Origin: Acidobacteriota bacterium
GTDB taxonomy: Bacteria; Acidobacteriota; Terriglobia; Acidiferrales; UBA7541
DNA: 64,000 nt
Direction of reading: 5' to 3'
NCBI GenBank assembly: GCA_003167215.1
Contig: PMTV01000053.1
Span: forward strand, 124,001 to 188,000
The position numbers and the translations under genes were made by a program. Below, in pieces: positions 6,101 through 16,775 of this stretch (positions within the stretch are counted from its first letter, which is position 1; every line of letters begins with the position of its first letter). The notes under the pieces were generated by a model. It was not told the DNA's origin. It saw only the letters and a list, made by a program, of their open reading frames with translations, and made no database searches.

Positions 6101-6943
6101 TCAGTTCGATTGATTCCGCCCGCGTATCGCTATCAGCGTGGCCTGAGCTTGCTGCGCGATCTGCAGCGACATCCCATTCGCTCCATGCGCGAAGCGGGCT
6201 ACATCGACCGCATCCTCCGCGTTGCCCATCAAAAAAAGCGCGCGCAGAGCTTCCCATACCATGCTCGCGCTCGGCAAGAGCGAAAGAATCGGCTGGCGCG
6301 CGGCTACGCTCGATCCGTCTGCAGTAAGCCAGCGGCCCACCGTGCCGGGAACGTTCGATCGCACTTCCCGCTTCCCCGCTGATGATTCGACGTGCGCCAC
6401 CATCGTTCCGGGATTGACTACATCTCCAGGTTTCAGCCGGGTATCAAGCTTTCCTTCGACCGGCGAGCTAAGTTCGAACGGCCGGAGCATGGCGACGATT
6501 TGCGCGTGGCCGGAATCGTCCTTGAAACGCACCAGGGAGAGCGCTGCGTTACGCTGGACCATCGGGTTAGGGTCGTTGAGAAGCTGCAAAAGCGTGTGAT
6601 GAAAATCCTCAGATGAATTGTCCTGGCCCATTACCCAGGCATCGGTGACGCGGATCTCCTCCACCGGATCGCTCGCGAGCTGAATGATTTGGGGATACCA
6701 CTTGCGGACGGAGGGGTCGCGAGTTTCCATGCGCGTTTCGAGCTGAGCCAGCGCGTGCTGGATGTCGCGCGGGTGCGAGTGGTCTGCCAGCGCTTTCGAA
6801 ACCTGCTGATCGTTTAACGGGCGTCCGAACCAGGTCGCGTTCCAAAACAAAAACGGCATGAGCACAAACAGCAGCGCTATGGCGAGGATTCCGAAAGCCC
6901 AACGGCCGCCGAAGGAAGGCTGTGTTTTTGTGTCTTCTGCCAT
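6101..6943 (-). CDS. Membrane-anchored HEAT-repeat protein with barrel-sandwich insert
   Basis: 280 residues. One transmembrane segment (WAFGILAIALLFVLMPFLFW) is followed by HEAT/armadillo-like helices at about residues 60-155 (e.g. DPNPMVQRNAALSLVRFKDD). A beta-rich biotinyl/lipoyl or HlyD-like hybrid domain occupies about 160-225 (LSSPVEGKLDTRLKPGDVV, then VRSNVPGTVGRWLTADGSSV) but lacks the modifiable Lys in an MKM-like turn. More helices follow. No enzyme signature is present. It is the last gene of the ctaA-ctaB group, 12 nt after the DUF420 gene, so a part in assembly or stability of the terminal oxidase is plausible but inferred from context only. Confidence 0.78.
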   Translation of the reverse strand: MAEDTKTQPSFGGRWAFGILAIALLFVLMPFLFWNATWFGRPLNDQQVSKALADHSHPRDIQHALAQLETRMETRDPSVRKWYPQIIQLASDPVEEIRVTDAWVMGQDNSSEDFHHTLLQLLNDPNPMVQRNAALSLVRFKDDSGHAQIVAMLRPFELSSPVEGKLDTRLKPGDVVNPGTMVAHVESSAGKREVRSNVPGTVGRWLTADGSSVAARQPILSLLPSASMVWEALRALFLMGNAEDAVDVARFAHGANGMSLQIAQQAQATLIAIRGRNQSN

Positions 6944-6955
6944 TCGATAAACAGT

Positions 6956-7441
6956 TTACAGCAACGCGTGCAGCAGAGGCAGGCCGATCTGGGATACAGC
7001 CGGCGCGCCGATAGGCGTGTAAGCGATGTACAAGAGCCAATAAACGATAACGCCTGTAACTGAAACGTAGAGCCATATCGGATAAGTCCAATGCGCGATG
7101 CGGCGATGGCTGCTGAATCGCTCGCTTAAAGCGTAGGCGAGCGTGATGATCACGAGCGGCAGCGTGGTTATCGCGAGAATGGTGTGCGAAATGAGCAAGG
7201 TAAAATACACCGGCCGGATCCAGCCCTGGCCCCCGAAGCGAATGAGGCCCGCGTGCACGTGGAAATAAACGTAAAAGCCCAGGAAAGTTATCGAGCAGAA
7301 GAACGCGCACAGCATCGCAGCGCGGTGCCAACGGATTTTTCCGTTGCGAATGAAGGCAAAGCCAATGAGCAGAAAGAAAGTGCAAACCGCGTTCAGCGTG
7401 GCGTTCACTGCCGGAAGAGATGAGAGCGGAATAATTGTCAT
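6956..7441 (-). CDS. DUF420 membrane protein (CtaM-like)
   Basis: 161 residues with four predicted transmembrane helices. LPAVNATLNAVCTFFLLIGF at the start and the HRAAML / HVHAG / SHTILA histidines in helices match the DUF420 family. In Firmicutes that family includes CtaM, needed for activity of heme A-type oxidases. The conserved histidines may bind heme or copper. It sits in the ctaA-ctaB cluster between the small two-helix protein and the HEAT-repeat protein, supporting a role in oxidase maturation. Function in this organism is inferred. Confidence 0.85.
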   Translation of the reverse strand: MTIIPLSSLPAVNATLNAVCTFFLLIGFAFIRNGKIRWHRAAMLCAFFCSITFLGFYVYFHVHAGLIRFGGQGWIRPVYFTLLISHTILAITTLPLVIITLAYALSERFSSHRRIAHWTYPIWLYVSVTGVIVYWLLYIAYTPIGAPAVSQIGLPLLHALL

Positions 7442-7469: not shown

Positions 7470-7943
7470 CTAGCTGTCCTGAGGCTTAGCCGCCGGAGCA
7501 GGCGCGGGTTTCGCCGCCGGTTTAGGTGCGGGCGGAGGCTCCGGATAACCCGGCTCCACAGCAGCAAGTGGATGGGAAGCCTGCAGCGGCGGTGCGGCAG
7601 CCGGAGAGGTTGCGGGGACCGGAGCGGCACTCTTTGCAACTGCTGTGGCAGGCGCTGCGGCGGGCGACTTCGGCGCTGCTTGGGCGGCGGGTTTGGCACG
7701 GAAAAATGGAAGCACTCCCGCTTGATACACCATCACTAGAATCATAAGGCTGAAGATTCCGCCCATCATCAAGCAGATTGCCAGCAACATGATGCCGTCG
7801 ATTCCGCTGGTAAGCAGACCGCTGGTAATCTCCCAGATGATGCCGATAAGCGCTAAGGCAACAAACAGTGCGCATATGACGCAAAGCTCGATCCAATTTG
7901 CTTTGGGTGTGGTGGTTTCGGTCCCCATGGTTGTAGTAGTCAT
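7470..7943 (-). CDS. Two-helix membrane protein with Ala/Pro-rich tail
   Basis: 157 residues: a Thr-rich start, two hydrophobic helices (residues about 20-40 and 50-72), then FFRAKP and a long low-complexity Ala/Pro/Lys tail of about 80 residues ending PAAKPQDS. No family recognised. The start overlaps the stop of ctaB by 4 nt (ATGA), so translation is coupled to heme O synthase. The tail could be a periplasmic spacer, or cytoplasmic, depending on topology. Confidence 0.75.
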   Translation of the reverse strand: MTTTTMGTETTTPKANWIELCVICALFVALALIGIIWEITSGLLTSGIDGIMLLAICLMMGGIFSLMILVMVYQAGVLPFFRAKPAAQAAPKSPAAAPATAVAKSAAPVPATSPAAAPPLQASHPLAAVEPGYPEPPPAPKPAAKPAPAPAAKPQDS

Positions 7944-8833
7944 CGGCCCATTTTATCGAAAATCATCCACGCAAGCAGAAGCGGGATGTGAATGACGGTG
8001 GCATGCATAAGCCATTTCGCGCGGACATTGGTGCGCGCGCGGTTGGCCCACAGCGAAACTTGCAGCAAAATCATCCCCAGCACCAGAGCTCCGAAGAAAT
8101 AACGAATCCCGGCCATTCCCATCACTGAGGGAAGCAAGCTTACAGGCACTAGGATTGCGGAAAAACTGACAATCACGTTAAACGTAGCGTCACCCTTGCG
8201 GTCCACGACCGGTAACATTTGAATTCCCGCCCGTGCGTAGTCTTCGCGGTACATCCAGGCGATGGCCATGAAGTGCGGAAACTGCCATACGAACAAAATG
8301 GCAAAAAGAATCCAGCCGCCTTCGGAAAGTGAGCCCCGGGCAGCGGCCCAGCCGATCAACGGAGGCAACGCGCCAGGAATGGCTCCCACGGCAGTTGCAA
8401 GCGTCGTGCGGGTCTTAAGCGGCGTGTAGAGGCCAAGGTAAGACGCGCTGGTGGCGAAGGCGATAAAGGCCGCGAGTGCGTTAACGGTGAGGGCCAGCCA
8501 CGCTGTGCCGAAAACGATTGTGACAACACCGAAAATCAGGACTTCGCTTGGTTTTAACGTCCCGGTCGGGAGCGGGCGCGCCGCCGTCCTGCGCATTACC
8601 GCGTCCATATCTCTTTCGACGTACTGATTCAGAGCGGCAGTCCCACCGGCTACCAACAAAGTGCCGAAGAGCGTTTGCGCGAGGCGAGCCCAATCCACGG
8701 GGCCGGTTGAACCGAGGTAAAAGCCGGCAACGGTGGTAATCACCACCAGGAAGGTGACGTCGGGCTTCGTGAGCACGACATAAGCCCACGGCTTTTCGAA
8801 AAGGTTGATGGCGAATGCGCGTTCGTTACTCAT
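7940..8833 (-). CDS. ctaB: Protoheme IX farnesyltransferase (heme O synthase)
   Basis: Transfers farnesyl from farnesyl diphosphate to heme B, giving heme O. UbiA-family membrane enzyme with 7-9 helices. NQYVERDMDAVMRRTAARPL carries the NxxxDxxxD prenyl-diphosphate motif and RPLPTG is typical of CtaB. The start is taken at the ATG at 8833 (MSNERAFAINLF). The in-frame GTG at 8869 would overlap ctaA by 32 nt and adds a polar stretch unlike the family. The gene starts 4 nt after ctaA stops. With ctaA it supplies heme A for a terminal oxidase, whose own subunits are not in the window. Confidence 0.95.
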   Translation of the reverse strand: MSNERAFAINLFEKPWAYVVLTKPDVTFLVVITTVAGFYLGSTGPVDWARLAQTLFGTLLVAGGTAALNQYVERDMDAVMRRTAARPLPTGTLKPSEVLIFGVVTIVFGTAWLALTVNALAAFIAFATSASYLGLYTPLKTRTTLATAVGAIPGALPPLIGWAAARGSLSEGGWILFAILFVWQFPHFMAIAWMYREDYARAGIQMLPVVDRKGDATFNVIVSFSAILVPVSLLPSVMGMAGIRYFFGALVLGMILLQVSLWANRARTNVRAKWLMHATVIHIPLLLAWMIFDKMGR

Positions 8834-8837
8834 GACG

Positions 8838-9782
8838 TCAAGCCCTCGAGCTTTCGGCTCGCGTACCACCGGTACGTGTAGTTTCCATGGCCGATCGTAG
8901 TGCCACGACTGCTTTCGGACGAATCAAACGATAGCAAGATAACGTCAAGACCACACTGGAAGCAAGCGTCAATGCGCCGACAAGCACATGTGCGACCGTG
9001 ATGACAACATAGGCCATAGACGGCTGGGTGGCGTGCATAGCCTGCACTACGGCCCAATACGCCGCAACGCCGAGCAAGATCTGCGTGCCGAGGAACGCCT
9101 GCAGCAAGACGCCCCAGCGGCGAAGGTCGCGAACCTGGCCAAAACGCTTGCGGACCGCGCGGCAAGTCCAAACGATCAGAAACGTAACCACGACGAATCC
9201 GACGAGATGCGGCAGGATTCCAAAGGCTCCGTGGCGAAAGCCTGCGCCGAGGATGAGCTGAACGAAAATGGCAGCGGTGGTAACGACTGCGAGAGGGCGC
9301 AGGCGGGGCGAGCCGCGATCGTCAAGCGACGAAAGGTCACGCTGCCACCAAGCACTGGTCAGCAACGCGAGACTGACCACAGTAACGAAGAATATCTGTG
9401 CGAGCGTGGCGTGCATCGTCGCCGTGACTGCCGGGTGTCCGCGAAGGACGCGCAGCGCCCCGAGGAGAGCTTGCGCGATGATCAAGGCCAGCGCCGTCCA
9501 GCCTAGCTTGCGAGCGATGCGGGTGCCGCTGCGGGCAAGCCAGACAGCTAAAACCAGAGTGAGAATGCTGACGGTAGCGGCAAACACTCGGTGAGCAAAT
9601 TCGTAGCGAATGCCTCCTACGAGGGGAGGAATAATTCGGCCGTACGCGAGAGGCCAATCCGGCACAGAGTCGGCAGCGTCGTTGCTTGTCACCAGCGCGC
9701 CGGCCATCAGAAGCAACACGGTGACTGCTGCCGTAGCGACGGCGAATCGGTGGACGCCTTGAAGCTTCTCGGTTTCCGGCAT
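8838..9782 (-). CDS. ctaA: Heme A synthase
   Basis: 314-residue membrane protein of the COX15/CtaA family that oxidises the C8 methyl of heme O to give heme A. The N-terminal helix carries MAGALVTSNDAADSVPDWPL, and VGGIRYEFAHRVFAATVSIL provides a conserved His-containing helix with GALRVLRGHPAVTATMHATLAQ. The second half repeats the pattern (QLILGAGFRHGAFGILPHLVG). About eight helices are expected. It is preceded by a 153-nt gap holding a long hairpin that separates it from the cupredoxin gene. Confidence 0.95.
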   Translation of the reverse strand: MPETEKLQGVHRFAVATAAVTVLLLMAGALVTSNDAADSVPDWPLAYGRIIPPLVGGIRYEFAHRVFAATVSILTLVLAVWLARSGTRIARKLGWTALALIIAQALLGALRVLRGHPAVTATMHATLAQIFFVTVVSLALLTSAWWQRDLSSLDDRGSPRLRPLAVVTTAAIFVQLILGAGFRHGAFGILPHLVGFVVVTFLIVWTCRAVRKRFGQVRDLRRWGVLLQAFLGTQILLGVAAYWAVVQAMHATQPSMAYVVITVAHVLVGALTLASSVVLTLSCYRLIRPKAVVALRSAMETTRTGGTRAESSRA

Positions 9783-9935: not shown

Positions 9936-10724
9936 CTAGTCTCCGGATGCCGCGGCGGTCTTGAACGTGAAGGTGAGCGGCTTCGATTCCTTAGCGCCGA
10001 TCGTCACCGTCTGATCCGAGACACCGTACTTTTCGTGCCACGCTTCGATCGTGTAGGTTCCCGGCGGCAGGTCCTTCAATGTAAACTTTCCATCTTTCGA
10101 AGTGACCGCGTAGTAGGGATTCTTGAACACGAAAATGTAACTCTTCATCCAGGGGTGCACGTTGCACTTCACCGGTATGGCCACTTCGGCGCGGCCGAAC
10201 GTTTCGTCGATGGGAGTGGCGCCTGGCGGCTGCGACTTATTCCACTCGCGATTATCTTTCGGCATCGGGTGAATGTTGTGAGTGGTTTGGTCGTCATTCT
10301 TGACTTCGAATGTCTGGCCGGTCATCAAAGCGATGATGTGGGGGTCGTACATGCAACCTTGTTGGTTGAGCACGACAGGCTCTTTGGGCGTGTCGAAGTT
10401 ATAGTCGGCGAGGCCGTCTTTCACGTAAACCACTACGTTGGCCAGGTCGCCCTTGTCGTCTACGACGACCTCAGGCGGGACAACGGGATTCGGATGCGCT
10501 TTCTGGCAATATGGCTCGGCGCTCATGTTGATAGGCTTGGCCGGCACGGGCTTGCCGTCGAGCGTTACGCTGCCGGTAACGGAGCCGACCGTCGAGGTAT
10601 CGATCACCTTCTTGGCGTTTGAATTCGCCACGGGCTGCTCGTTGGTGTCCTCTTTTTTGCCGCAGCCGGTGATGGCAATCGCCAACACGGCGGCCAATGC
10701 TAGATAAAAAAACTTAGTCTTCAT
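9936..10724 (-). CDS. Cupredoxin-like lipoprotein with carboxypeptidase-regulatory domain
   Basis: 262 residues. The signal peptide ends in AITG-C21, a lipobox, so it is a lipid-anchored periplasmic protein. The middle resembles a blue-copper fold: H149 (TTHN) with H152 nearby, then C187-NV-H190-PW-M193, giving the His/Cys/His/Met set of a type 1 copper site. The last ~60 residues (DGKFTLKDLPPGTYTIEAWH) form a carboxypeptidase-regulatory-type beta domain. GGAGG lies about 11 nt before the ATG. It follows the octaheme cytochrome gene by 97 nt and is probably co-transcribed. A role as electron carrier between that complex and an oxidase is inferred; copper binding is predicted, not known. Confidence 0.82.
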   Translation of the reverse strand: MKTKFFYLALAAVLAIAITGCGKKEDTNEQPVANSNAKKVIDTSTVGSVTGSVTLDGKPVPAKPINMSAEPYCQKAHPNPVVPPEVVVDDKGDLANVVVYVKDGLADYNFDTPKEPVVLNQQGCMYDPHIIALMTGQTFEVKNDDQTTHNIHPMPKDNREWNKSQPPGATPIDETFGRAEVAIPVKCNVHPWMKSYIFVFKNPYYAVTSKDGKFTLKDLPPGTYTIEAWHEKYGVSDQTVTIGAKESKPLTFTFKTAAASGD

Positions 10725-10821: not shown

Positions 10822-13800
10822 CTAGTTCCTGCCGCCAGCGCCTTTGCCGCCTGCTCCGCCTGAGGGCTTTGCGCTCCCGCCGCTCGGAGCCGGGGTCTTC
10901 CCGACGAGCGCGGCTTGTTCCTGCGGCGTAAGCGAGAACATGTAGCGGACCAGCAAGTCCGCTTGATCGCCCTGGTAATGCTGCACGGTCGCGGGCACCG
11001 GACCTGAGAAGACCCAGTGATCGCCTTCCATGCGGAATAATCCCGAAGGCATAGCAGTGCCGGGGATAATTTTCGCGGGATCAATGATCCAGCGCTCGGT
11101 CCAGGCCGGTTGCAGACGATCGTGGGCCAGCAAGAAATTCGGTGCAATTGCATTCTTGTCGTGCGCTTCATTGCCCGTCATATGGCATTTCAGGCAGGGC
11201 GCAGCCGGGCTGATGAACAAAGCGCGAGCCATGGCGCGCTCGTTGTCATCAAGAGGTTTCACCTTCGGCGGAATAAACGGATCGGGCTGAGACGACATGG
11301 CCTGGAAGAAAAGCACGAGCTTGCGAATTTCGTCGTTCGAGAGATAGAACGTCGGCATGCGCACTTGCAGATACTGGCGCACGCCGTTGCGATTCGTATC
11401 TGTGGTGCTGAGCGACGGATTGGCCAGGAACTGCCTGAGCCATTCGGGATTCACACGCGCGCCTTCGGTGGTGAGTACCGGAGGCAAATTCGCTTTGTTC
11501 TCACCTTGATAGAACGGCAGAGTCTGCATCACAGATTTTTGGCCGACGTCAATCTGATGGCAGCCAATGCAGTTGTATTTCGTGACCACCCACCAGCCTT
11601 CTTGAATATAGCGTCGGCGGTCGGCCGGCCTGTACATGTACTCCGGCGGCAAAGTGGGATCGGTGCTTCCCAAGAGCATGCTGACCAGAGCCTCGACGTC
11701 ACCATCGCCGTAAAGATTCGGCTTGGGCATGCGCAACGCGTCCATCGGATTCGCGTGATATTTACCCTGGTCGTAAACTCCGGGATTCTGTAATTTTTGC
11801 TCGAAGAAGCCTTTCGCGTCGTACCAAGGGCCACGGGGCGATGTTTTGCCATCGGGAAATACGCCGCGCTTGGCGTCTTCGGTCCAGAGAGCGAAGTCGA
11901 GCCGCTCGATCGGCTTGCTGCCTTCGTTGGTAAGTTCGGTACCGATGCGGCCTTCGTCTTCGAGACCGCTGAGTTCATGGCATCCGGCGCAACCATAATG
12001 ACGCGCCAGGTCTTTGCCTTTGGCGGCCAGTTGCGGGTCGTCCATGTAATCCGCGGAGGCGTAAGAAGCATCGGGACGCTTCTGCGTCATCAAGTACGTA
12101 GCGATGTCGCGTGAGTCGTCCATTGAAAGACGCAGACTCGGCATCACGGTGGGCTGCTGCACTACGAGCTCGTGGCCATCGTTCGGACAGCGCGAGTGAT
12201 CCAAATCGAAAACGTACGGTAGATTGTGCTTGGCGTAATCTTCAGGTCCCAAGTCGCGCTTTTCGTAAGGACAATACGGCCTCGTGCGCTGGCGCGGGTC
12301 GTGGACCCAGCGAACGACATAATCGTAATTTTCCTTTTCGCCGACGCGGCTGAGGTTGGCAGCGAAAGTTCCGCCAACCGTGGACGAGCCTTCACCCATG
12401 GAATGGCAGGCGAGGCATCCGCGCTCTTCGAAGAGTTCTTTGCCATGGGCTGCGTTACCGGGCGCCTGATGATCGAGCGGAGGGCCGGTGAGTCCTGCTT
12501 GCCAAACGAAAGCGGCGAGGGCCTGCGTCTCGTCCTGCGAGAGACGGAACTGCGGCATTTTGGTGGTCGGCCGGAATTCGGTGGTGTGGCCGATCCAGTA
12601 TGGAATCCATTCTTTGCGCAGCTTCTGGCGCGCTTCCTTCAAATCGGGGCCTACTTTTTTGATTTCCTGCAAAAGATTGTGAGTTTGTTGTTCGAGCGAT
12701 TCGGAGCGCGCGTCCATGCGGCTGATTTCCACGGTTAGATTCGTGGCCTGACTGTTGAGCTTGTCGGCGGTGGCGTTGTCTGGCGCGGCGTCGGCTTGTT
12801 TCTGCAAACGCGGGATCGTCAGCAAATCGTCTGATTTGGTTTTCGCGAGCTGCAAAATCTGCTGGCGCGCGTTGACAAGTTGCTCATCCTGGTTGTCAAA
12901 CCCCTGAAAACGATGACACCCGATGCAACCGCGCTGGCGATAGAGCTGCTTTCCGTCGTTGAGGACCGGCGCGTGCTCGGTGACCATGTCGGCGGAATGG
13001 CACTGCTGGCATCCCGCTTGATAATTTTCCGGGTAATACAACGGCCAGAGCCAATGCGGGTAGCGGCCGTGTCCGCGCTGGACGGAATCGATCGCGCGGC
13101 CGTTTCCGCCGTGGCAAGGCGAACAACCGAACTTCTCAAGCGGATGCCATTGAATTAAATCCAAATCGGGGTGACTTGAAAAGGGCGCGTTATTGCTCTT
13201 CGCCATTCCCAGGTCCGCCTTCGTCAGCGTGACTTGAGGCGGAACGTACTTGGGGTCCGTGCCAACGTGGCACGATTCGCAGCGATCCACCAGTCCGGCG
13301 CCGCCCAAATTGTTGATGGACGCGCCGGACGGATTCACGTTGATCTGGATAATTCGCTCGTCAAAATCTTCCATGGAGCGGCGCAAGCCATCGAGCGAAG
13401 CGGAGCTCAGGCCGGGTAGATGGTCGGAGACATATTTCGTTAGCAGGGCCTGCGCATCTTTGGCTGGCTTGTCGATTTCGCCACGCTTCGCTACCAATGC
13501 AGCACGTTGCGCCATGATGCTGGTGAATGTGTCGTTCAGCTGGTCGGCAGTGAATACTTTATTTTTTTCAATTTGGCCACTCGCGGTGGGCCAATCCACT
13601 TTCCATGTGGAACTCCGGCCTTCATTCAAGTCCTTTAGGGCTCTAGCTTTCGCACTTTTATCGCTGTCCGGAACAATTTCGTATTGGTAGACCAAGTGAC
13701 CAATTTTCCCGCGTTCATCCTTGAAAGCATCGGCCATGGCCGCGCGCTGCTGGTCCAAGAGCTCGATCTGTTTGGCGATCTCGTCGTCCTGGATTTTTGC

Positions 13801-14088
13801 CGTTTGCTGTGCACTGGAAAGATTCGAGGCGAGAGTCTTATATTCTGGCGAGGAGTAAACGTCGCTCTCGTCTTGCTTCTGCCGTTTGATGTCCTTGCCG
13901 AGATATTCGGAGTAGGCCTTGGCAAATCGGGACTGGTAGCGGCGCCAGGGTTGCAATCCATAGAATTCAACGTAGAAAGACCATGCGACAGTGATAATAA
14001 GAAGCAGCGAAGCGATCAAAAGCGGGAATGCAAACGATCGATTCTTAATCGGATCATCCGGCGGCATTTCAGGCGAACGGTCAGGCAC
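10822..14088 (-). CDS. Octaheme cytochrome c subunit of a Rieske/cytochrome b complex
   Basis: 1088 residues with one N-terminal transmembrane anchor (about 21-42) and a periplasmic remainder. Eight CxxCH heme c sites start at residues 270, 322, 360, 388, 558, 700, 840 and 965. Sites 1-3 are close together with no Met-Pro motif after them, suggesting bis-His ligation. Sites 4-8 are each followed by an MP motif (511, 649, 787, 911, 1013), as in class I cytochromes c with Met ligands. Charged helical, coiled-coil-like stretches occupy about 50-215 and 400-490. C606 and C634 form an extra cysteine pair. The tail is Gly/Pro/Ser-rich. It starts with GTG, GGAGG 6 nt upstream, 51 nt after subunit IV. 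It occupies the position of cytochrome c1 or f; neither fold is recognisable. Confidence 0.93.
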   Translation of the reverse strand: MPDRSPEMPPDDPIKNRSFAFPLLIASLLLIITVAWSFYVEFYGLQPWRRYQSRFAKAYSEYLGKDIKRQKQDESDVYSSPEYKTLASNLSSAQQTAKIQDDEIAKQIELLDQQRAAMADAFKDERGKIGHLVYQYEIVPDSDKSAKARALKDLNEGRSSTWKVDWPTASGQIEKNKVFTADQLNDTFTSIMAQRAALVAKRGEIDKPAKDAQALLTKYVSDHLPGLSSASLDGLRRSMEDFDERIIQINVNPSGASINNLGGAGLVDRCESCHVGTDPKYVPPQVTLTKADLGMAKSNNAPFSSHPDLDLIQWHPLEKFGCSPCHGGNGRAIDSVQRGHGRYPHWLWPLYYPENYQAGCQQCHSADMVTEHAPVLNDGKQLYRQRGCIGCHRFQGFDNQDEQLVNARQQILQLAKTKSDDLLTIPRLQKQADAAPDNATADKLNSQATNLTVEISRMDARSESLEQQTHNLLQEIKKVGPDLKEARQKLRKEWIPYWIGHTTEFRPTTKMPQFRLSQDETQALAAFVWQAGLTGPPLDHQAPGNAAHGKELFEERGCLACHSMGEGSSTVGGTFAANLSRVGEKENYDYVVRWVHDPRQRTRPYCPYEKRDLGPEDYAKHNLPYVFDLDHSRCPNDGHELVVQQPTVMPSLRLSMDDSRDIATYLMTQKRPDASYASADYMDDPQLAAKGKDLARHYGCAGCHELSGLEDEGRIGTELTNEGSKPIERLDFALWTEDAKRGVFPDGKTSPRGPWYDAKGFFEQKLQNPGVYDQGKYHANPMDALRMPKPNLYGDGDVEALVSMLLGSTDPTLPPEYMYRPADRRRYIQEGWWVVTKYNCIGCHQIDVGQKSVMQTLPFYQGENKANLPPVLTTEGARVNPEWLRQFLANPSLSTTDTNRNGVRQYLQVRMPTFYLSNDEIRKLVLFFQAMSSQPDPFIPPKVKPLDDNERAMARALFISPAAPCLKCHMTGNEAHDKNAIAPNFLLAHDRLQPAWTERWIIDPAKIIPGTAMPSGLFRMEGDHWVFSGPVPATVQHYQGDQADLLVRYMFSLTPQEQAALVGKTPAPSGGSAKPSGGAGGKGAGGRN

Positions 14089-14139: not shown

Positions 14140-15126
14140 CTAAATGCTGAACCATGGCGTCACCCATATATATTTGATCGTGAAAACCAGCCGCAGCAGA
14201 ATCTTGATCGGCAGCGACAGCATGAGAATCAAAAATGTGTACATGGTCACAAGCTGCAGCAAACTCATCCGCTTGTAAATTTTCTTGCTAAATTCGGTAC
14301 GAGTGCATACCCAGTGAACCAGAATTGCAGCGACAATGAAAAATATCACGAGCGGAAATATTCCAAAAATCGCCCGCGCCCAAATGGCCGCCTGGTCCTT
14401 GGTTGTATGGAAAATGGGAGCAAGCCAGGAACCATCGATACCGAATATCTGATCGAGGTTCCGGTTCACAGCATAATCAACGCGTTCAGCGTCCCACGTC
14501 TGTCCCGGCCAGAACCACATCCATCCCGGACCGCGAATGAACGTGCCGATTACGATCATCAGCACCCAGAGCCCGATGAAGCCGACCAGGAAAGTCCAAA
14601 TGGAAAATCTTCGCTGCTTGTAGGTGTAGTAGCCGTTGCCAAGAGGGTTCGAGTCAATATACGGAATGACCATCAAGCCGACGATGATCAAAGTCGGCAT
14701 GACTACGCCCGCAATCCAGGGATCGAAATAAACCAGCATTTCCTGAAGACCCAGGAAATACCAAGGAGCTTTTGCCGGATTCATGGTGACGTTAGGGTTG
14801 GCAGGCTCTTCCAAGGGCGCGTTTAGCGTCAATGACCAGGCCATCAGCAGTACGGTGACCAGGATGGCCACCAGGAATTCCATGCGCATCAGGTAGGGCC
14901 AGGTGTGAACTTCTCGCTCCCACTTGGGATCCCATTCTTGCGTCTTGCGGTATTTGGTTTTGGCGGCCTGCGCATCGGATTCCAGAATTGCGATCAGCTT
15001 GTCGTTCGCGATGCCCTGCCTCAGCGCGTACCACATGTAAAACGGGGCGAGAAATAACAATGCGACAATCGGCACATTGTCGGGTGCGGATGCGACCTCC
15101 CAAATTTGGCGCCAATCGAAAGGCAT
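14140..15126 (-). CDS. Cytochrome b C-terminal domain protein (subunit IV-like)
   Basis: 328 residues corresponding to the C-terminal half of mitochondrial cytochrome b, as in split b6f-type complexes. It forms part of the quinol-oxidising Qo site. The PEWY motif appears as A120-P-W-Y (NPAKAPWYFLGLQEM), so the Glu is replaced by Pro. It is about twice the length of chloroplast subunit IV (~160). An extra N-terminal helix (about 17-35) and two or three additional C-terminal helices give six in total, plus a WMWFWPGQTW periplasmic loop. It lies 51 nt after the cytochrome b6 gene and 51 nt before the octaheme cytochrome gene. The added helices may anchor the octaheme subunit; that is inference. 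Confidence 0.93.
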   Translation of the reverse strand: MPFDWRQIWEVASAPDNVPIVALLFLAPFYMWYALRQGIANDKLIAILESDAQAAKTKYRKTQEWDPKWEREVHTWPYLMRMEFLVAILVTVLLMAWSLTLNAPLEEPANPNVTMNPAKAPWYFLGLQEMLVYFDPWIAGVVMPTLIIVGLMVIPYIDSNPLGNGYYTYKQRRFSIWTFLVGFIGLWVLMIVIGTFIRGPGWMWFWPGQTWDAERVDYAVNRNLDQIFGIDGSWLAPIFHTTKDQAAIWARAIFGIFPLVIFFIVAAILVHWVCTRTEFSKKIYKRMSLLQLVTMYTFLILMLSLPIKILLRLVFTIKYIWVTPWFSI

Positions 15127-15177: not shown

Positions 15178-16119
15178 CTAACCCATCCCGCTGGGCCGCA
15201 GAATTACCGGCCGCGGGCTTCTCTCTTCCTTGATTTCCGATTCAAGCATCACCGGCGCGGGGCCTGATATTCCCCCGTCTTTTCGTACGCGCCAGAAATG
15301 GACACCCAAAAATATCGCGACAATCAACGGAATGGCGATGCAGTGCCAAATGTAGGCGCGCAACAATGCATTCGCGTCCACAATGGATCCGCCAAGCAGG
15401 GCGAAGCGCACGTCGTTATACGGCGTCATGCCCATTTGAGGGCCGCCTGGGCCTTCATTTCCTAACAGCGGCGTGGCTCGCGCCATATTTGTTCCCACTG
15501 TGACGGCCCAGAACCCCAGCTGGTCGTCCGGAAGCAAATACCCCGTGAAGCTCAGCAACATCGTCAACACCATCAGCAGTACTCCGACGCACCAATTGAA
15601 TTCGCGGGGGCGTTTATACGAGCCGGTCATGAAGACGCGGAACATATGCAGCCACACCGCGATGATCATCAAGTGGGCGGCCCAGCGATGCATGTTGCGC
15701 AGCAGCTTGCCGAACGGCACGTCGTTTTCGAGATACAGGATGTCGCGGAACGCCTGGATCTTCGACGGGTGGTAATAAAACATCAAGAGAACGCCAGTGA
15801 AAGTAAGAACGATGAAGAGGTAGAAAGTGATTCCGCCCATGCCCCAGGTGAAATTGTATTTCGTTGCATCGCGGTTGACCTTGGCCGGGTGCAGGTGGAA
15901 GAAAACGTTGGAAAGAACGCTGAGCGCGCGATTGCGCGGTTCTTCGTCGTGTTTGACGCGGAAAATCGAGCGGTAAAGCTGAGTTTTCTCCGGTTCTTTC
16001 AGCTCGGTGGCTTGCTGTTTGGCTTTTTCCGTCAGCGTTTCACGGAGCGCGGCGGCAGAGTCCTTCGCTTTTTCGAGGATGCCGGTTTTGCTCTTGCCGT
16101 CGCCGTTTTCTTCGGGCAT
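15178..16119 (-). CDS. Cytochrome b6-type subunit (diheme N-terminal cytochrome b)
   Basis: 313 residues: a charged N-terminal extension of ~65 residues, then the four-helix diheme core. Ligand pairs are H144/H158 (13 residues between) and H259/H274 (14 between). Fourteen is the b6-type spacing; bc1 cytochromes b have 13. The Cys that holds heme ci in b6f (FYCLGG) is not present: the matching stretch is TWGMGGIT. The core gives quinone reduction at Qi and transmembrane electron transfer. The N-terminal extension is Lys/Glu/Ala-rich and probably helical. Menaquinone is the likely substrate in this phylum, not shown by the sequence. Second gene of the Rieske operon, 68 nt after the Rieske gene. 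Confidence 0.95.
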   Translation of the reverse strand: MPEENGDGKSKTGILEKAKDSAAALRETLTEKAKQQATELKEPEKTQLYRSIFRVKHDEEPRNRALSVLSNVFFHLHPAKVNRDATKYNFTWGMGGITFYLFIVLTFTGVLLMFYYHPSKIQAFRDILYLENDVPFGKLLRNMHRWAAHLMIIAVWLHMFRVFMTGSYKRPREFNWCVGVLLMVLTMLLSFTGYLLPDDQLGFWAVTVGTNMARATPLLGNEGPGGPQMGMTPYNDVRFALLGGSIVDANALLRAYIWHCIAIPLIVAIFLGVHFWRVRKDGGISGPAPVMLESEIKEERSPRPVILRPSGMG

Positions 16120-16187: not shown

Positions 16188-16775
16188 CTATACGTTCAAA
16201 AATGCTCCCGGATCATTGAAATGATTCACGCCAGCGCGGGGATCGTCCACGAATAGCCGGCTCGTATCCACGGTGATCTTTCCAGTGGGATCGAGCTGCA
16301 CGAAGGAACGGTCCATTGGCCGAGGCGCTGGTCCCTCAAAGTTCACACCTTCGCTGTCATACCCGCTTCCGTGGCAGGGACACTTGAACTTATTTTCGGC
16401 GGGCTTCCATTCAGGCGTGCATCCGAGGTGCGTGCAACGCGCGAAAATGACGAAAAGGCGGTCCGGCTCGCGCACGACCCAAACGCGGTTGGTCATCAGA
16501 AAGCGCTGATCGATTCCCAGCGCGAAGTCGGTAGGAAAGCCGATATCGAAAACAGTATTGGGCTCGTATAGCGCGCGAGGAAAGAAAAACCGCAGGAACA
16601 TCAGGAAGTTAACGCCCAGGTAGCCCCAAATACAGGCCCAAACAATCCGGCGACGGGTAGTATTTACCGTCTTAGCCGCCGCTTTGGAGTCTAGCGCAGC
16701 AGATGCATTTGCCGCCGGCGCCTTGGAAGACGCGCTGGTTACCTCTCCGGACTTCCCGTCAGACATATCTGGCAT
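16188..16775 (-). CDS. Rieske iron-sulfur protein
   Basis: 195 residues: a low-complexity Ala/Ser/Lys N-terminus, [12 protein letters not shown] (arginine patch at the start of the membrane anchor, loosely like a Tat signal), one transmembrane helix, then the Rieske fold. Box I is C114-TH116-LG-C119 and box II is C132-P-C134-H135-GSGYD; C114, H116, C132 and H135 ligate the [2Fe-2S] cluster and C119/C134 form the disulfide. It accepts an electron from quinol at the Qo site and hands it on, here presumably to the octaheme cytochrome. First gene of its operon; a strong promoter lies upstream. An in-frame ATG at 16766 is an alternative start. Confidence 0.96.

Follow-up and report, generated by a model that had tools for sequence, protein, structure and literature searches.

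A lipoprotein with a nested copper domain as a probable electron carrier between octaheme cytochromes and CuA oxidases in Acidobacteriota

In bc-type complexes quinol is oxidised at cytochrome b, and one electron passes via the Rieske protein to a cytochrome. In the window, the 64,000-nucleotide stretch of Acidobacteriota DNA analysed here, genes for such a complex with an octaheme cytochrome are followed by a gene for a putative copper lipoprotein and then by ctaA, an arrangement that raises the question of whether the copper protein takes electrons from the octaheme cytochrome and, if so, which oxidase receives them. A sequence-only reading of this DNA had placed the gene between the octaheme cytochrome gene and ctaA and had suggested a carrier between the complex and a heme A oxidase. 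The placement is correct, on the minus strand, where the genes run in the order Rieske protein, cytochrome b, subunit IV, octaheme cytochrome, cupredoxin, ctaA, ctaB, a small membrane protein, a DUF420 protein and a HEAT/biotinyl protein, with the cupredoxin gene 97 bp from the octaheme gene and 153 bp from ctaA. The products of ctaA and ctaB make heme A, and the DUF420 protein is presumably linked to oxidase assembly. There are no oxidase genes in the window. The genes for which coordinates were assigned are these:

16188..16775, minus strand: Rieske iron-sulfur protein (match to Rieske)
15178..16119, minus strand: cytochrome b6-like protein (match to Cytochrome_B)
14140..15126, minus strand: C-terminal part of cytochrome b, or subunit IV (match to Cytochrom_B_C)
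10822..14088, minus strand: octaheme cytochrome c, 1088 amino acids, eight CXXCH motifs, N-terminal membrane segment read by eye
9936..10724, minus strand: cupredoxin lipoprotein, 262 amino acids, open reading frame with homologues
8838..9782, minus strand: ctaA, heme A synthase (match to COX15-CtaA)
7940..8869, minus strand: ctaB, heme O synthase of the UbiA family (match to UbiA)
6956..7441, minus strand: DUF420 membrane protein (PF04238)
6101-6943, minus strand: HEAT-repeat protein with a weak biotinyl/lipoyl-like stretch

The cupredoxin frame is real: it begins with ATG, and the plus-strand reading from the same first base is interrupted by stops. Read by eye, its product has the signal peptide and lipobox cysteine of a bacterial lipoprotein, and H149, C187, H190 and M193 lie exactly where the sequence-only reading had put them. 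Conservation was judged in an alignment (A1) of the window protein with 23 relatives, 29-90% identical to it, that were hand-picked for diversity from whole-genome matches with no motif filter, and in a larger alignment of 81 rows (A3). The predicted lipidated cysteine, C21, is present in 17 of the 24 rows of A1 and in 58 of the 81 rows of A3. Within the gene we distinguish the following features:

10662..10664, minus strand: C21, predicted lipidated cysteine of an ITGC lipobox (residues 18-21), read by eye
10557..10586, minus strand: residues 47-56, first strand of a split carboxypeptidase-regulatory (transthyretin-like) domain, from fold matches of the model
10506..10508, minus strand: C73, which may form a disulfide with C124 (found in 22 of the 24 A1 rows)
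10353..10355, minus strand: C124, which may form a disulfide with C73 (likewise found in 22 of the 24 A1 rows)
10122..10385, minus strand: residues 114-201, cupredoxin domain, predicted to be nested in the other domain, from the AlphaFold model and fold matches
10278..10280, minus strand: H149, predicted copper ligand (24 of 24 rows of A1; amicyanin alignment)
10164..10166, minus strand: C187, predicted copper ligand (24 of 24 rows; amicyanin alignment)
10155..10157, minus strand: H190, predicted copper ligand (24 of 24 rows; amicyanin alignment)
10146..10148, minus strand: M193, predicted axial copper ligand (24 of 24 rows; amicyanin alignment)
9954..10115, minus strand: residues 204-257, remainder of the carboxypeptidase-regulatory domain (Pfam CarboxypepD_reg at 204-254; fold match)

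Structure prediction bears out a copper domain. The AlphaFold model, built with 81 aligned sequences, has a mean pLDDT of 88.4, and in the model and the fold search residues 114-201 adopt the Greek-key cupredoxin fold, matching a NirK domain (6hbe, Z 12.6), plastocyanin (7pcy, Z 12.2) and amicyanin (2gb2, Z 11.7), with plastocyanin and amicyanin rows extending from Z 12.2 to 10.6. Pfam Cupredoxin_1 falls below its cut-off (11.6 bits versus 27), the fold match being clear nonetheless; no NCBIfam family scores above its cut-offs for the protein, and no copper-chaperone family, SCO1/SenC or other, matches it in Pfam at E<=1. When the A1 profile is aligned with solved structures, the four residues fall on the copper ligands of amicyanin. 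Since all four are invariant in the 24 rows of A1, with no homologue there lacking C187, the ligand set is not a matter of chance. They are likewise invariant in all 81 rows of A3, an alignment that was gathered with a CN[VI]HPWM and THN motif covering all four ligands and is thus partly circular, adding little. The fold and the profile alignment point to a cluster of these ligands that would form a type 1 copper site.

Amicyanin is among the best small-cupredoxin matches by both profile and fold and shares the Cys-x2-His-x2-Met loop; it is a soluble single domain, unlike the window lipoprotein. Amicyanin is an electron carrier for methylamine dehydrogenase. We considered membership of the amicyanin family for the sake of this loop and rejected it, finding no methylamine dehydrogenase among the identified nearby genes.

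The copper domain separates the first strand of the carboxypeptidase-regulatory domain from the rest and is therefore nested inside that domain. The Pfam match to CarboxypepD_reg (PF13620) is above its cut-off (36.2 versus 32.3 bits), with residues 204-254 covering profile positions 30-81 only. Joining residues 45-77 to 202-256 extends the match to profile positions 1-81 at 43.7 bits, compared with 39.9 bits and positions 30-81 for residues 202-256 by themselves, which is a modest gain. The model, in turn, aligns with carboxypeptidase D in its transthyretin-like domain over residues 43-257 (1qmu, 81 residues aligned, Z 11.0) and 2nsm over residues 47-257 (Z 10.9). Together, the gain on joining and the span of the fold match argue for nesting. 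The carboxypeptidase-regulatory domain described by the sequence-only reading is therefore present, and it is not purely C-terminal, its first strand preceding the cupredoxin. C73, which belongs to the insertion, and C124 are missing from the same two short rows of A1 and present in the other 22, a joint pattern that suggests a disulfide between them. The nested domain may act as a tether, a spacer or a docking surface, and such a domain-in-domain layout would be a simple means of holding a carrier on a tether.

The sequence-only reading had called the fusion of copper and carboxypeptidase-regulatory domains uncommon. For Acidobacteriota our scan of species genomes contradicts this: it confirmed at least 580 related stretches, of which we kept 80 as loci, and at E<=1e-30 the long cupredoxin is encoded by 49 of the 119 genomes in a phylum-wide sample of completeness >=90%, counts on which we rejected the notion of a rare fusion. 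Acidobacteriota labels are attached to 77 of the 80 loci, and the other three (Verrucomicrobia, Bacillota and Acidimicrobiia) may represent transfers or binning errors. The porin-diheme-cupredoxin clusters at L099 (Acidobacteria label) and L101 (Verrucomicrobia label) are closely similar, with cupredoxins that are almost identical in the tree, perhaps through binning error or recent transfer.

Linkage to the octaheme cytochrome is widespread. Neighbours in the loci were called by BLAST (E<=1e-8) with proteins of the window's own genome as queries, so that distant neighbours may escape. The octaheme gene is directly upstream of the cupredoxin gene on the same strand in 44 of the 80 loci; downstream in those 44 are ctaA/ctaB in 37, coxB as the next gene in 4, and neither recognised in the fetched DNA in 3. 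Many of the 80 loci also have a gene for the HEAT-repeat protein near ctaB/DUF420. Among 61 relatives, all 33 that encode the octaheme cytochrome also encode the long cupredoxin; the two genes adjoin in 30 of them, 76-513 bp apart, and are not neighbours in G037, G044 and G047; in the phylum sample the octaheme gene was found in 20 genomes, all with the cupredoxin and 14 with the two adjacent, ten of these 20 octaheme matches being partial at 33-37% identity. Fisher p-values for co-occurrence were 1e-9, 4e-4 and 2e-4, values that overstate independence because the genomes are related.

The cupredoxin also persists where this complex does not. Cytochrome b was undetected at E<=1e-15 in 13 of the 61 relatives (G001, G003-G009, G011, G018, G022, G025 and G054), a count in which genome incompleteness could mask some genes. 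Ten of the 13 belong to the window's own genus, and the whole bc-type complex has apparently been lost in close relatives. All 13 encode ActD of alternative complex III and 11 keep the long cupredoxin; 8 of those 11 have a heme-less CoxB of the type found on contig C66 of the window's genome, which is absent from G006, G018 and G022. In the midpoint-rooted tree, copies from the three of these genomes that it includes (G001, G006 and G009) fall within a 16-row clade among octaheme-linked copies, a position that fits loss of the complex with retention of the copper protein. Because 11 relatives without detected cytochrome b retain it, the presence of the cupredoxin is tied more closely to the oxidase than to the octaheme cytochrome, and we rejected the idea that it is an obligate partner of the latter.

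These genomes bear on whether the protein might be permanently built into the Rieske/cytochrome b/octaheme complex, or into a III-IV supercomplex, acting as a wire and not as a shuttle. Such a role would fit the adjacency seen in 30 of the 33 octaheme-encoding relatives, as well as the distribution of the lipobox, which in strict-pattern form is present in 38 of 44 octaheme-linked homologues, none of 6 diheme-linked ones and 7 of 22 unlinked ones; since the diheme-linked copies are without it, tethering of the cupredoxin appears to go with the membrane complex. However, retention in the 11 genomes implies that the protein can work without that complex, and we consider a fixed subunit unlikely. 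This explanation overlaps with that of a carrier and differs from it only in whether the protein moves.

To which oxidase, then, might a carrier deliver? COX1 is strongly matched once on each of four contigs of the window's genome (C43, C17, C66 and C7), and the corresponding subunit II has a heme c motif on C17 and C43 and lacks it on C66 and C7. On C7, a paralogue of the cupredoxin (47% identity) directly precedes coxB, coxA and coxC. Counting this paralogue, a cupredoxin gene lies directly upstream of coxB (15-265 bp) ten times in the 61 genomes. The run of octaheme gene, cupredoxin gene and coxB is found at L087, L114, L121 and L128, and the heme motif is absent from the CoxB frames of these loci and of L095, L117 and L135, that of L114 being cut by a contig end. 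As to the two contigs with heme-fused CuA oxidases, C17 (L165) also carries alternative complex III and an SCO gene, and C43 (L164) a second Rieske/cytochrome b set.

Across the 61 relatives, the long cupredoxin and a C66-type CoxB are both present in 45 genomes and both absent from 7; at the thresholds set, 7 have the cupredoxin only, among them G022 (97% complete) and G031 (99%), and 2 the CoxB only (G011, 79% complete; G042, 61%). Cupredoxin rows were counted from about 141 bits upwards, together with the cut-off copy G041:C169, giving 52 genomes (57 of 61 at E<=1e-5), and CoxB rows weaker than about 1e-45 were omitted, giving 47 genomes (otherwise 51); G002, thus omitted, has a CoxB match of 4.7e-28 just after a cupredoxin. 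None of the 56 CoxB frames behind the 47-genome count contains CXXCH, and 55 contain the CuA motif, the remaining frame being cut by a contig end. This check strengthened the link to the oxidase, and we left our estimate for the carrier as it was.

A search for the CuA subunit II family covered 12 of the 61 genomes, namely the 7 that lack both the long cupredoxin and the C66-type CoxB, and 5 with the cupredoxin. All 7 of the former encode a CuA subunit II with fused CXXCH, and a heme-less one is encoded by all 5 of the latter (5 of the 52 genomes that have the cupredoxin). Five of the 7 have weaker or shorter cupredoxin relatives at E<=1e-5 (G017, G046, G050, G053 and G060); G017 encodes, in addition to its heme-fused CuA subunit, a single heme-less one of 253 amino acids, and short frames that contain the CuA motif and lack heme occur in G053 and G060. 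Judging from these sequences, the long cupredoxin goes with oxidases that have no built-in cytochrome c.

Taken together, the protein is probably a tethered lipoprotein whose nested type 1 copper domain carries electrons from the octaheme cytochrome to CuA in an A-type oxidase with a heme c-less subunit II. The tethered carrier of the earlier proposal is the best-supported reading, on the strength of operon linkage, co-occurrence and the heme-less CuA subunits; the protein is not bound to the octaheme cytochrome alone, in view of the 11 relatives described above. Quinol would be oxidised at cytochrome b, one electron would pass via the Rieske protein to the octaheme cytochrome, and the membrane-tethered copper site would take up single electrons there and donate them to the CuA centre of a heme c-less oxidase, in this genome that of C66 or of C7; in genomes lacking the Rieske/cytochrome b/octaheme complex, alternative complex III would be the electron source. 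The frame, the lipobox, the fold, the placement and conservation of the ligands, the gene linkage and the co-occurrence come from the computation; copper loading, the direction of electron flow and the identity of the partner oxidase are what we infer from them. The octaheme protein carries cytochrome c domains of its own (PF00034) and PF13442 is matched 13 times in the genome, in some cases within short reading frames, so that other carriers are possible.

An assembly factor that supplies the CuA or CuB site of the oxidase with copper would likewise be expected beside ctaA, ctaB and the DUF420 gene, since these too are oxidase builders. The immediate neighbours are indeed ctaA and ctaB, this linkage persists at loci without an adjoining octaheme gene (for example L074 and L108), and in the excerpts of the rus operon report cited here the same alternative is raised for the rus cupredoxin (PMC2754497). 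Against this, the predicted copper site retains all four of its type 1 ligands. Such an intact site is typical of electron transfer. In addition, the genome already encodes an SCO1/SenC protein, and members of the family adjoin octaheme, diheme and alternative complex III genes as well. Moreover, CuA subunits with the complete motif are encoded in the seven genomes that lack the long form, which indicates that CuA can be assembled in the absence of the long cupredoxin. With a heme-fused CuA subunit in all seven, we ranked a general role in copper assembly second, and we think it improbable. That the protein is a redox sensor or a copper buffer, its linkage to respiratory genes reflecting shared regulation only, would accord with the 22 of 80 loci in which none of the sought respiratory partner genes adjoins it; with an operon position conserved across many families and direct adjacency to coxB, we give this very little credence.

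A wider form of the carrier proposal is that the nested cupredoxins of Acidobacteriota are a family serving as a common gateway to heme-less CuA oxidases, fed by the octaheme complex, by alternative complex III or by a porin-cytochrome with a diheme cytochrome, and that one lineage lost its cytochrome b complex entirely and retained the cupredoxin through a change of source. We put this forward tentatively, at somewhat less than an even chance. Acidobacteriota are among the commonest soil bacteria. If the carrier proposal holds, copper and not cytochrome c would be a main link in their respiratory chain, with a bearing on copper dependence and on the interchange of bc-type and alternative complex III chains. 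Our literature search, judged by titles and the openings of abstracts, found no account of an Acidobacteriota carrier between quinol-oxidising complexes and oxidases. Replacement of cytochrome c by a copper protein is already known, and the octaheme-linked, nested-domain form would be a variant of it.

AcoP (Cup), from the rus operon of Acidithiobacillus ferrooxidans, resembles the family described here: it is a membrane-bound cupredoxin whose gene accompanies those of an A-type oxidase, and its partners are that oxidase and a c-type cytochrome (PMC5982212, PMC2754497). In the excerpts of these reports, AcoP and cytochrome c oxidase are purified together, a diheme cytochrome reduces AcoP, and AcoP is anchored by a transmembrane segment (PMC5982212), and the rus operon has the order cyc2, cyc1, cup, coxB, coxA, coxC (PMC2754497). 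The window protein has a lipobox where AcoP has its transmembrane segment, and a carboxypeptidase-regulatory domain that the excerpted descriptions of AcoP do not mention (PMC5982212). Two residues separate its second His from Met (H190, M193) and four in AcoP (PDB titles H166A, M171A), and the fold match between the two is weak (7z3g, E 1.1e-3; 7z3i). Whereas the AcoP gene lies between those for a diheme cytochrome c4 and CoxB, the window copy lies between the octaheme gene and ctaA and, unlike AcoP, pairs with an octaheme Rieske/cytochrome b complex. By analogy, the window protein would work like AcoP, but neighbours and ligand spacing differ and it is not AcoP.

In sulfocyanin (Sulfolobus SoxM supercomplex) and halocyanin a copper protein replaces cytochrome c, according to the excerpts of PMC3062577, and sulfocyanin, as proposed here for the window protein, is a blue copper protein between a bc1-analogous complex and a terminal oxidase (PMC3062577). 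Sulfocyanin is archaeal and the window protein bacterial, and the likeness is drawn on role. The anammox complexes Kustd1480-1485 and Kuste4569-4574 are Rieske/cytochrome b complexes in which a hexa- or octaheme protein replaces cytochrome f, and share with the window operon a b6-like cytochrome b, a subunit IV and a multiheme cytochrome; the excerpts describe for them an NAD(P) oxidoreductase and no cupredoxin (PMC12954380), whereas the identified genes of the window operon show the reverse.

The C7 paralogue, unlike the window copy, sits between a diheme cytochrome c and coxB, as AcoP does. Its locus (L034:12121-18763, G000:C7, in the window's own genome) runs from a porin-like protein, in which a single CXXCH lies at the N-terminus, through diheme cytochrome c and the cupredoxin to coxB, coxA and coxC, which is the order of the rus operon as excerpted, where cyc2 comes first (PMC2754497), and makes the likeness one of gene order. 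On this analogy the C7 cluster could be an extracellular electron uptake chain, perhaps for Fe(II), in Acidobacteriota. A model of the porin-like CXXCH protein (A4, 5 sequences) has a mean pLDDT of 49, too poor for comparison with a Cyc2-like barrel, and Pfam assigned no family to four such proteins that adjoin diheme-linked copies.

Elsewhere, at L053 (G017:C72, 907-7603) and L057 (G050:C90, 7059-13753), a short cupredoxin paralogue directly precedes a gene for an NAD(P)/FAD/4Fe-4S oxidoreductase, called by Pfam for the L053 copy and by eye for that of L057, and after it come genes for a Rieske protein, cytochrome b, subunit IV and an octaheme cytochrome. These clusters resemble those Rieske/cytochrome b complexes of anammox bacteria that include an NAD(P) oxidoreductase, and a porin-like CXXCH gene lies just upstream at L053. 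Finally, at L167:6978-14998 (G013:C208), a second, divergent operon resembling that of alternative complex III, with molybdopterin and 4Fe-4S proteins, NrfD, ActD and a tetraheme cytochrome, precedes genes for a porin-like CXXCH protein and then a paralogue of the cupredoxin.
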